Shown piece after piece: positions 31,557 to 36,434 of a stretch of DNA of 64,000 nt. Within the stretch, counting starts at the first letter, position 1. The number at the start of each line of letters is the position of its first letter. A program made the translations under genes and the position numbers. Source of the stretch: Marinobacterium mangrovicola (GTDB lineage: Bacteria > Pseudomonadota > Gammaproteobacteria > Pseudomonadales > Balneatricaceae); the NCBI RefSeq assembly GCF_004339595.1, contig NZ_SMFU01000008.1, forward strand, positions 496,001 to 560,000, given 5' to 3'. The notes under the pieces were generated by a model. It saw only the letters and a list, made by a program, of their open reading frames with translations, was not told the DNA's origin and did no database searches.

Positions 31557-33200
31557 ATGGCTGCTAAAGACGTACGTTTCGGTGATGATGCCCGTCAGCG
31601 CATGCTGGCCGGCGTAAACATTCTGGCGGATGCGGTTAAAACAACCCTGGGCCCGAAAGGCCGTAACGTTGTACTCGACAAGGCTTTCGGCGCTCCGACC
31701 GTCACCAAAGACGGTGTTTCCGTTGCTAAAGAGATCGAACTGCAGGACAAGTTCGAAAACATGGGCGCGCAGATGGTTAAGGAAGTCGCTTCCAAGGCCA
31801 ACGACGTTGCCGGTGACGGTACTACCACTGCAACCGTTCTGGCTCAGGCTATCGTCAACGAGGGTCTGAAGTCCGTTGCTGCTGGCATGAACCCGATGGA
31901 CCTGAAGCGCGGTATCGACAAAGCGGCTGCTGCCGTTGTTGAACAGCTGGCTGAAATGTCTTCTCCGTGTGAAGACTACAAAGCGATCGCTCAGGTCGGC
32001 ACCATCTCTGCCAACTCTGACGCTGAAGTCGGCAAGATCATCGCTGACGCGATGGAAAAAGTCGGTAAAGACGGCGTTATCACCGTTGAAGAAGGTTCAG
32101 GCTTCGAAAACGAGCTGGACGTGGTTGAAGGTATGCAGTTTGACCGCGGCTACCTGTCTCCGTACTTCATCAACGAGCAGGAAACTCAGACCTGCGAACT
32201 GGAAGATCCGTTCGTACTGCTGGTCGACAAGAAGATCGGCAATATCCGTGAACTGCTGCCGACTCTGGAGCAGGTTGCCAAGTCTTCCCGTCCGCTGCTG
32301 ATCATCGCTGAAGATGTTGAAGGCGAAGCGCTGGCGACTCTGGTCGTTAACACCATGCGCGGTATCGTTAAAGTCTGCGCTGTTAAAGCACCGGGCTTCG
32401 GCGACCGTCGTAAGGCGATGCTGCAGGATATCGCGATCATGACCGGTGGTCAGGTTATCTCCGAAGAAGTCGGCCTGAACCTGGAAACCGTTACCCTGGA
32501 GCACCTGGGTACCGCCAAGCGCGTCAACATCACCAAGGAAAACACCACCGTTGTTGGCGGTGCTGGTTCCAAGGCTGATATCGATACTCGCGTTCAGCAG
32601 ATCCGCGTTCAGATCGAAGAAACCTCTTCCGATTACGACCGCGAAAAACTGCAGGAGCGTGTTGCCAAGCTGGCTGGCGGCGTAGCTGTCATCAAGGTTG
32701 GTGCGGCTACCGAAGTTGAAATGAAAGAGAAGAAGGCCCGCGTTGACGACGCTCTGCACGCTACCCGTGCGGCTGTCGAAGAAGGCGTGGTACCTGGCGG
32801 TGGTGTTGCACTGATCCGCGCTCTGAGCAAAATCTCCGGCCTGGAAGGTGACAACCACGACCAGACCATCGGTATCCAGCTGGCGCTGCGCGCCATGGAA
32901 GCACCGCTGCGTCAGATCGTTGGCAACGCTGGCGGCGAAGGCTCCGTTGTTGTCGACAAGGTACGTGCAGGCGAAGGCGCTTTCGGCTTCAACGCTTCTA
33001 CCGAAGAGTACGGCGACATGCTGGAAATGGGCATCCTCGACCCGGCTAAAGTAACCCGTTCTGCGCTGCAGGCGGCTGCTTCTATCGCTGGTCTGATGAT
33101 CACCACTGAAGCGATGGTTGCTGAACACCCGGAAGAGAAGCCGGCTATGCCTGACATGGGCGGCATGGGTGGAATGGGCGGCATGGGCGGCATGATGTAG
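31557..33200 (+). CDS. groEL: GroEL chaperonin, stop codon interrupted by an intron
   Basis: A 547-residue Hsp60 with the normal ends, including the Gly-Met repeat tail [13 protein letters not shown]. Conserved ATPase elements such as [14 protein letters not shown] are present. In the DNA the stop reads TAG, but its last G (33200) is the first base of a group II intron; after splicing the 5' exon TA joins A at 36410 to give TAA. The protein is complete either way, so intron insertion is harmless to the sequence but puts 3.2 kb between groEL and its terminator. Codon choice is strongly biased, as expected of a highly expressed gene. Confidence 0.97.
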
Positions 33201-33420
33201 TGCGACGAGAGTCGCCTGCGAGGCACCTTGATTCCTTTTGAATCAGGGTGTTAGCCCGGGGTTTAGGTGTGTTGAGCACCTACCCCATCCTCTCACCCGG
33301 ACTGTGAATGAGAGGAGCCGCTGCGGCGGTCAGTCCACCCATGTGACCCCGGTCGATGACGGCGTTTAGCTAAGCGCTTGAGACCACAGACTCGGTTCGT
33401 CTGCAAATGAACCAACAACG

Positions 33421-33461
33421 CATGCAAAAAGAGAATCGGGCTTGTCCCGGTTCTCTGCATG
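33421..33461 (+). repeat. Compound hairpin inside the intron leader
   Basis: Outer arms CATGCA / TGCATG and inner arms GAGAATCGGG / CCCGGTTCTC (one wobble), loop CTTGT, with an AAAA bulge on the left side. It lies early in the intron and may be part of an enlarged domain I or an inserted element. Confidence 0.6.
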
Positions 33462-33983
33462 TCCTCACCTTATGGCCTTTTGCCATGCCACTTCGTGCTT
33501 GCTCATCCACCCGGATAGTGTGGAGCACACATACGATCACCACGGCTCAATCGAGTCACTGATCTAACCTCGCAGCGATGCAAGCTGTAACGATGATTGT
33601 TCGGCGCATTTAGCTGATGCGTAGTGAACCTGCTGTTCAGCCAGTTGTAGCCTAGGGATAGTGCGATTCCAGTAATGGAGTGGTGCGAAGCTTCCTGACA
33701 ATGTAGCCCCGTTTTTCGGTGTGCGCGGCCCGTGAGGGTGCGTGCATGGATCCTGCGAGTGACAACGCGGGTGAGGTGCTAGGCTGGGAGGTATGGTTAA
33801 CGTATGTGAACTGCTGATAAATACCGTCAACCGCAAGGAGCCAAAGTCACTGACAGGCTTCAACCAAAATGGTGCGTAGCTGGTTAATCCTTTTACATCT
33901 GGGATTACGCTGACAACAAAGCTACCGGTAGATAGGCAGAACCTAACCCTCTCGTGTCATCGTTATGGAACTCGGTAAGCCCG

Positions 33984-33989
33984 TACATC
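33984..33989 (+). other. EBS1 of the groEL group II intron
   Basis: TACATC is the exact complement of the last six bases of the 5' exon (GATGTA, 33194-33199). It sits in a loop just before the TGCCCATTGGGCA hairpin. This pairing is the main evidence for the splice site at 33199/33200. Confidence 0.8.
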
Positions 33990-34287
33990 TGCCCATTGGG
34001 CAAGTAAGCCGTAAGGCAAACTGTTGGATGTGCGGGTAAAGGATGCCAGAAAAAGCGAATGCCTGGCTGTAATGGCTAGGACAGGGGTTCGAACTTTGCC
34101 CTGACCGGAAACGGTGCCCACTTCTGGCAGGTCTTTACTCGCGTAACGTCCTGTAAAGTCTCTAAATCGAAGTCAGGCTCTGGCCTAGGCTTCACTCATC
34201 GACGCCCTTGTGGGGATGCATAATTCCCGCAAGGGGTTACTGCGTCTTCAGTCATTCAGGGGAGGTCAAACCTAGGAGGACTGCAAG

Positions 34288-36001: not shown

Positions 36002-36030
36002 TTGTGTAACATTATTGGTGCTGGTATTTT
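36002..36030 (+). promoter_or_regulatory. Possible own promoter of the DUF2188 cargo gene
   Basis: TTGTGT (36002-36007), 17 bp, TATTTT (36025-36030) in an AT-rich spacer unlike the GC-rich surroundings. A strong AGGAG follows at 36050-36054. Weak consensus match. Confidence 0.3.
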
Positions 36031-36061
36031 ATACAGGTAACTTCTATCTAGGAGATATTGC

Positions 36062-36286
36062 ATGTCTGGTAAAAACCAACACGTAGTACAGCGGGAAGAT
36101 GGCTGGGCAGTCAGAGGGGAAGGTAACTCTCGAGATACCTCTCACCATCGTACTCAGCAGGAAGCCGCTGAAGCTGCACGCGACATTGCGAGAAATCAGC
36201 AGAGCGAAGTATTGATTCATGGGAGGGACGGGAAAATCCGTGAGCGTGACTCTTACGGGAATGATCCGTATCCTCCGAAGGGTTAA
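36062..36286 (+). CDS. DUF2188 protein carried inside the group II intron
   Basis: A 74-residue DUF2188-family protein: NQHVVQREDGWAVRGEGNS at the start and the family ending IHGRDGKIRERDSYGNDPYP. DUF2188 proteins are small basic/acidic polypeptides of unknown function common in many bacteria. This one lies between the reverse transcriptase stop and domain V, thus within intron domain IV, and has its own AGGAG ribosome site. The spacer around it is AT-rich, suggesting it came from another source. Its expression inside an intron is the notable point. Confidence 0.88.
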   Translation: MSGKNQHVVQREDGWAVRGEGNSRDTSHHRTQQEAAEAARDIARNQQSEVLIHGRDGKIRERDSYGNDPYPPKG

Positions 36287-36334
36287 TGGGCACACTAGAC
36301 GCCGGCTCTCCGTGAGGAGGGCTCGTAAAGGCTT

Positions 36335-36368
36335 GAGCCGTATGCGGGGAAACTCGCACGTACGGTTC
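36335..36368 (+). ncRNA. Group II intron domain V
   Basis: A 34-nt stem-loop starting with GAGCCGTA and ending TACGGTTC, with a GAAA tetraloop and the AGC catalytic triad at the 5' side. It is the most conserved part of a group II ribozyme and fixes the strand and the 3' end, about 41 nt downstream at 36409. Confidence 0.92.
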
Positions 36369-36434
36369 TTAGGGGAGGGGTGGTCAGTAATGGCTGCTCC
36401 TTACCCGACAGCCAGCCTTGACGCTTAAGTCTCG

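Follow-up and report, generated by a model that had tools for sequence, protein, structure and literature searches.

Group II introns in the groEL stop codon appear to preserve the stop through their first base and to carry exchangeable cargo in domain IV

A group II intron in the groEL stop codon has been on record for Azotobacter since 2003 (Ferat et al. 2003; Adamidi et al. 2003; later Michel et al. 2007), and excerpts of two later sources attribute to Michel 2007 the 5' insertion found in a subset of CL1 introns (PMC4465626, PMC4028801). Here we examine a related element in Marinobacterium mangrovicola, a complete group IIB/CL1-type intron of 3210 nt (positions 33200–36409) that splits the groEL stop codon as TA|A. 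The window, i.e., the whole stretch of DNA that was analysed, comprises 64,000 nt of contig NZ_SMFU01000008.1 (assembly GCF_004339595.1, positions 496,001 to 560,000, forward strand). The Azotobacter intron shares with it the site, the protein class and the 5' insertion, to judge from the part of the source available (PMC4465626). The intron protein at the A. vinelandii locus is 78% identical to that of the window; unlike the window's intron, however, the A. vinelandii intron has nothing in the slot that holds cargo here. CL1 (IIB1) introns that have hundreds of nucleotides inserted close to their 5' end, as the present one does, have been described, and the available portion of that account mentions neither cargo nor a first base that preserves a stop (PMC4028801). 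Engineered targetrons also accept an extra gene in domain IV, and according to an excerpt, their cargo has included phage resistance (PMC3898094). Similarly, the title of a study on cargo-bearing Tn7-like transposons points to a mobile element with varied defence-related passengers (Benler et al. 2021). In contrast to targetrons, the cargo here is natural and differs between species. Whereas Tn7-like elements are DNA transposons, the element here is an RNA-based intron with roughly 0.3–0.9 kb of cargo. A survey from 2022 covered the group II introns of 14,506 bacterial genomes, and a term search of it returned neither groEL nor cargo (PMC8919778). Among the literature matches listed, there was no report of natural cargo in groEL introns or of a first-base switch, and the Azotobacter papers of 2003 and 2007 may mention either. 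The groEL-stop site is already known; the cargo slot and the stop-preserving first base may be new.

The original prediction, made from the letters of this DNA, had proposed a group II intron inside the groEL stop codon, and the Rfam covariance-model matches together with an empty site in a congener bear this out. The groEL reading frame (31557–33200) ends with ATG ATG TAG, whose stop lies at 33198–33200 and whose final G is the first intron base; the 5' exon thus ends ...ATG ATG TA | GTGCGACGAG at 33199/33200. Group II introns begin with GUGYG and end with AY, and the ends GTGCG...CCCGAC fit this consensus. The predicted end, GAC at 36409 followed by the A that gives TAA, agrees with the end of the RF00029 match, which terminates exactly at the splice site CCCGAC|A, and domain V and the groEL terminator likewise lie where they had been expected. 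The intron is present once in the host genome. The groEL gene was found in all eight sampled genomes of the genus, and among the groEL ends of the seven other genomes, one (Marinobacterium lacunae) has an intron at the same place and six have an empty site, two of these with TGA as the groEL stop. The kinship expected for the host, that of a marine Oceanospirillaceae-like genome, is right. In the empty-site congener nearest by groEL identity (G003), the site reads TAAGCCAGCC, and the groEL end, GGCATGATGTAAGCCAGCC, is the sequence predicted from joining the two exons of the window. The nearest solved structure to the intron-encoded protein is the maturase 6me0 (E = 7.8e-195), which we take to be of the CL1 class. 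Two features were absent from the original prediction, namely, the stop in the unspliced message and the DUF2188 gene inside the intron. The features of the intron and its exons are as follows, where IBS1 and EBS1 stand for intron-binding site 1 and exon-binding site 1.

31557–33199, plus strand: groEL 5' exon (open reading frame, ORF; Pfam Cpn60_TCP1, E = 4.8e-77)
33194–33199, plus strand: IBS1, GATGTA, complementary to the conserved EBS1 column
33200–36409, plus strand: group IIB/CL1-type intron (Rfam matches, empty site in congener, single copy)
33200–33628, plus strand: 5' insertion of the groEL-stop lineage, starting with the hairpin GCGACGAGAGTCGC (offset of the D1 motif; fold z)
33629–33778, plus strand: conserved D1 core, matched by RF02012 (D1–D4 core; cmscan, 96.4 bits, E = 9.9e-20)
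33894–33899, plus strand: EBS1, TACATC, at its corrected position (conserved, pairs with IBS1)
34288–35946, plus strand: intron-encoded protein with reverse transcriptase, maturase and HNH parts (Pfam RVT_1, RVT_N, GIIM and HNH; TIGR04416, 381.8 bits, cut-off 300)
35935–36313, plus strand: exchangeable cargo segment, limits approximate (unlike the M. lacunae intron inside, nearly identical to it on both sides)
36062–36286, plus strand: cargo gene, DUF2188, 74 aa (Pfam E = 1.8e-26; PADLOC PDC-S16, E = 3.4e-41)
36333–36409, plus strand: RF00029 match (D5–D6; 69.8 bits, gathering cut-off 40)
36335–36368, plus strand: domain V, inside the RF00029 match
36370–36409, plus strand: domain VI and 3' splice site CCCGAC|A (end of RF00029 match at 36409; likely branch A at 36403, from its position)
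36410–36461, plus strand: 3' exon, whose A completes TAA, and groEL terminator (empty site; terminator-like hairpin at 36434–36461)

The stop codon is kept both before and after splicing across the lineage. The best 80 of 362 intron-protein matches on genome contigs correspond to 79 loci; the window and six more, found by an order-wide search, bring the total to 86. An intron-protein gene is carried by 83 of these loci, and in 63 of them the intron starts after ATGATGTA or ATGATGTG; 61 of the 63 lie in groEL proper, and the other two (L059 and L075) follow a detached copy of 14–17 nt of the groEL tail. In all 61 introns in groEL, the codon at the unspliced junction is a stop (TAG in 55, TGA in 6), and no other in-frame stop precedes it in groEL. 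The codon formed by splicing is also a stop in all 59 introns with a known 3' end (TAA in 51, TGA in 6, TAG in 2). The first intron base is A at all six TG sites and G at all 55 TA sites, and a G-first intron at a TGA site, which would read TGG before splicing, does not occur among the 61. Splicing had been predicted to restore TAA in the window; the TA|A junction stands as claimed, but the unspliced message already has its stop, the TAG described above. Because the first intron base recreates the stop, GroEL would be made correctly whether or not the intron is spliced.

The first and penultimate bases of group II introns interact in the second splicing step, as is known from mutagenesis, and because of this interaction, changes of the penultimate base are the expected partners of a first-base change. 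Every G-first intron whose 3' end is known (n = 53) has a penultimate A. Among the six A-first introns, three have a penultimate G and EBS1 CACATC, one has a penultimate T with EBS1 unchanged, and two retain the penultimate A, one of them with EBS1 TGCATC. The Rfam 3' ends agree to the base with the assigned ends in three A-first introns. Among intact introns, the A-first state requires four changes on the protein tree, from which three incomplete sequences (L083, L092 and L102) were excluded, and five on the 5' RNA tree; both are quick trees with long branches. Three genomes from a single family (L130, L131 and L134) have decayed 5' intron stubs joined to groEL, with neither an intron-protein match nor a domain V match, and groEL in these genomes still ends with a stop (TAG, TAA or TGA) whose last base is supplied by the stub.

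Target recognition is supported by a conserved pairing. Every column of the 5' alignment was scored against each intron's own last six exon bases, with G-U counted as half, and the column complementary to IBS1 across the lineage corresponds to window positions 33894–33899, where 56 introns have TACATC, three CACATC and one TGCATC (n = 60). The mean pairing at this column is 5.97 of 6, compared with 4.52 for the next best column, and with G-U allowed, all 60 aligned introns are paired. The introns with CACATC or TGCATC are at four of the six sites that have GATGTG as IBS1. Both introns behind detached groEL tails were kept in the 60-intron tables for EBS1 and for the cargo slot, and three introns outside the length filter of the 5' alignment (L048, L072 and L079) were read directly. 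EBS1 had earlier been placed at 33984–33989, also TACATC; we reject this position, as it lies in a loop that varies across the lineage, with TACATC in just two of the 60 aligned 5' parts, those of M. lacunae and the window. For IBS2, no convincingly pairing column was found in the three registers tried.

The genome samples do not support a wide prevalence of the intron lineage. Its hosts include Azotobacter, Pseudomonas, Marinobacter, Halomonas and Alcanivorax, as well as Pseudoalteromonas, Shewanella, Citrobacter and Photorhabdus, and the intron proteins in groEL are 62–100% identical to that of the window. Among the 20 loci without the groEL site, the identity is 57–63% in 16, and the four closer ones (L049, L050, L067 and L083) are truncated where a contig ends, form part of a tandem or occupy another gene. 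An order-wide pattern search with two mismatches allowed matched 18 of 390 genomes, of which 15 were judged real, including the three decayed stubs and one detached site; the matches in G040, G065 and G215, without the stop-junction bases, were judged to be due to chance. A class-wide sample with one mismatch allowed gave one match in 369 genomes, which is the window itself. In Escherichia coli, at least five of 5426 genomes carry a groEL-stop intron. The lineage is also marked by its 5' insertion: the GTAGCC motif of D1 lies 447 nt from the intron start in the window, at 332–574 nt in 58 of the 60 lineage introns with the motif found (an earlier match at offset 175 in L033 was set aside as spurious), and at 62–105 nt in four relatives at other sites. 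The insertion has a fold z of −5.03 over 33200–33640. Directly after the stop codon, the window has the hairpin GCGAC GAGA GTCGC (33202–33215), and 48 of 63 introns are identical over these 14 nt. The specialisation of this lineage for the groEL stop codon, as originally predicted, is supported by the 61 introns in groEL among the 83 loci with a protein gene.

Some members of the lineage depart from the usual arrangement. Direct tandem introns occur at L079:2123–7772, L050:99 and L074:8302, where the next intron starts right after CCCGAC; the L074 tandem is seen from the first bases of the next copy alone. The Halomonas socia intron (L048:3237–5611) is interrupted by an apparent IS66-type element, whose ORFs were named by eye. 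In Pseudoalteromonas arctica (L067:127), an intron that bears DUF2188 follows AAGAAGTA, an off-target site resembling GATGTA, in a gene that by eye looks like a transposase.

Cargo is carried at one defined place in the intron. In the window, the DUF2188 gene lies downstream of the HNH domain and ahead of domain V and is the sole DUF2188 match in the genome, and the slot is at the same place across the lineage. Among complete introns of the lineage, 48 of 60 have a slot of more than 200 nt, or 46 of 58 when restricted to groEL proper, compared with one of 15 other relatives; the lineage count omits L105, with its broken protein gene, and the comparison omits L109, whose slot holds another group II intron, and the four closer loci without the groEL site. 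In a set of 51 filled slots, which includes three that are not among the 48, the longest ORF is on the plus strand in 38, on the minus strand in nine, and tied or absent in four. The 52 plus-strand slot ORFs form families of 11, 9, 4 and 3, five pairs and 15 singletons, with four ORFs from introns outside the groEL site (L050, L067 with two, and L108). The families of 11 and 9, DUF2188 and one other family, are among those that recur in distant introns. When 53 slot ORFs (the 52 plus one DUF1508) were compared with Pfam, 11 matched DUF2188, three DUF1508 and two a lambda ea8.5-related family, and most of the others had no named Pfam family. All 11 DUF2188 slot ORFs match PDC-S16 in PADLOC, that of the window over its full length. 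Phage and plasmid records with DUF2188 number 28 and 497, respectively. The fold model of the DUF2188 protein has a mean pLDDT (predicted local distance difference test) of 84, with no PDB match at E < 0.001; its best match is a Cas1 (E = 0.0097, TM, i.e., template modelling score, 0.33), and a sequence search against structures gave a short match to 8erw_A and nothing more.

Even closely related introns can hold different cargo. The introns of the window and M. lacunae are 94–100% identical per 100 nt through the end of the protein gene, unrelated over ~330–380 nt, and then near-identical to the 3' end, with a different cargo in the M. lacunae slot. Between the two species, groEL differs in 13% of bases (87% identical, silent changes in 140 of 530 codons), whereas the intron protein gene differs in 2% (98% identical, silent changes in 26 of 548 codons). 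Since the intron gene is far closer than groEL, the intron probably moved recently and its cargo changed. Across 61 tree rows, ten changes are needed to account for the ten groEL-site bearers of DUF2188, and over the 66 pairs formed by 12 bearers, DUF2188 identity is uncorrelated with intron-protein identity (r = −0.18). The window's DUF2188 gene differs from five others by 31–41 silent versus 10–17 changed codons. Within E. coli, strains LST200A and 23AR1101 have an intron with DUF2188 adjoining groL, and strains A37 and GF130 have an intron at the same site without DUF2188.

Taken as a whole, these results are best explained, with good though not full confidence, by a stop-neutral groEL intron with exchangeable cargo in domain IV. 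The intron would home to the groEL stop by pairing EBS1 with the final six 5'-exon bases, so that the insertion falls between the second and third stop bases and its first base recreates the stop, as TA|G or, in TGA hosts, as TG|A. Insertion into this essential gene should cost the host little. The slot after the reverse transcriptase gene would hold a single small gene or a few, mostly on the intron coding strand, and these would turn over frequently, probably through recombination among introns that share the site. The window's DUF2188 gene is likely transcribed with groESL and would move with an intron that presumably splices and retrohomes, making the element a candidate natural carrier of small accessory genes. 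The site choice may make the intron harmless, and the cargo may be useful to the host.

Several observations weigh against this account. The slot is empty in 12 of 60 complete introns, which suggests that cargo is not needed for mobility. A plus-strand ORF of at least 45 aa is lacking in six of the 48 filled slots, and the window's own slot is among the nine minus-strand cases, with 83 aa on the minus strand versus 74 aa for DUF2188. PDC-S16 is an unvalidated candidate category of phage defence, according to an excerpt of its source (PMC10855318). A simple scan found no promoter-like site before the cargo gene, and expression of the cargo would thus depend on read-through or on the excised intron. 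As for the stop codon, the penultimate A kept in two of six A-first introns makes the compensation partial, and stub L130 has A at a TA site, which retains a stop (TAA) and breaks the TA-G/TG-A rule.

An alternative is that the intron controls groEL, with the mRNA end and hence chaperone output depending on splicing and heat, which is close to what the original prediction had suggested. The apparent heat-shock setting of the operon fits this idea; two sigma-32-like matches were found in a scan of 30801–31220 that allowed at most two substitutions from the consensus, one at 30991 and the other listed here with groES.

31081–31106, plus strand: sigma-32-like heat-shock promoter match, GTTGAAA N13 CCCCAC, upstream of groES, putative function
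31205–31498, plus strand: groES (sequence and ORF; named from its position before groEL)

A groEL-type relative was moreover reported to be autocatalytic and unusually thermostable, as worded in a title among the references of PMC4424553. However, termination that depends on splicing is not supported, as the unspliced codon is always a stop (61/61, and 59/59 after splicing), so that GroEL is predicted to end at the same residue either way. Decayed copies also leave the groEL frame intact, and the site is occupied in only about 15 of the 390 genomes of the order. From these codon comparisons, unspliced messages seem to matter, and the host seems independent of splicing for the end of GroEL. We consider splicing control very improbable, while an effect of the intron on mRNA stability is possible. 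The A-first introns could instead be one sublineage that settled by chance in TGA hosts, with no repeated adaptation. Only a minor base change is involved, TGA sites make up just 6 of 61, and the trees are of the quick, long-branched kind; the domain VI of M. weihaiense is nearer to the Marinomonas type than to the window's, and recombination could spread such end sequences. In contrast, the six fall into four separate groups of the protein tree with G-first introns between them, five changes are needed on the 5' RNA tree, and EBS1 differs among them (CACATC, TACATC and TGCATC), which leaves a single origin unlikely. A less improbable but still doubtful alternative is that an ordinary selfish groEL intron merely tolerates random inserts in domain IV, with the passengers being neutral debris. 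Domain IV is known to accept inserts in engineered targetrons (PMC3898094, available in part), the empty and ORF-poor slots agree with such tolerance, and any benefit of the cargo is hypothetical. Neutral debris, however, would not readily account for the return of the same passenger families in distant introns, the preference of the longest ORFs for the coding strand (38 slots against 9, out of 51) or the mostly silent differences in DUF2188.

The groEL tail may not be used by the intron alone in Marinomonas flavescens. An island in the 8 kb downstream of its intact groEL (L148:12477–20000 and L059:1–4896) holds the QatABCD defence system in complete form, and the groEL tail is repeated there in two short copies, the last of which is followed by an intron. 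In this species, a second integrating element seems to use the groEL 3' end as its landing pad, and no recombinase was recognised by eye among the ORFs of at least 100 aa in the island. A motif like GGGGTATAAxGxGGGGTAT (L148:12171, L148:19132, L059:4807, L075:423, L051:8263 and L060:8214) occurs near groEL-tail copies and 96–97 nt beyond two intron 3' ends, and may be part of an attachment site.

In a broader sense, groEL-stop introns could constitute a natural gene-delivery system, in which a site-specific RNA element uses a nearly cost-free landing pad in a highly conserved heat-shock operon, acquires and swaps small genes in its domain IV slot, phage-defence genes among them, carries these from one species to another, and repeatedly rebuilds the unspliced stop by its first base together with changes in the penultimate and EBS1 partners; we regard this wider proposal as about evenly balanced. 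The stop-neutral site offers a simple account of how a mobile intron lives in an essential gene, as the host would be served without a need for splicing. Through the natural partner changes of the first and penultimate bases, a splicing interaction known from mutagenesis can be studied in natural introns. Group II introns serve as laboratory tools for gene delivery, and the exchangeable cargo suggests that they already do so naturally. E. coli has both carriers and non-carriers, and both ideas would thus be testable in laboratory strains.

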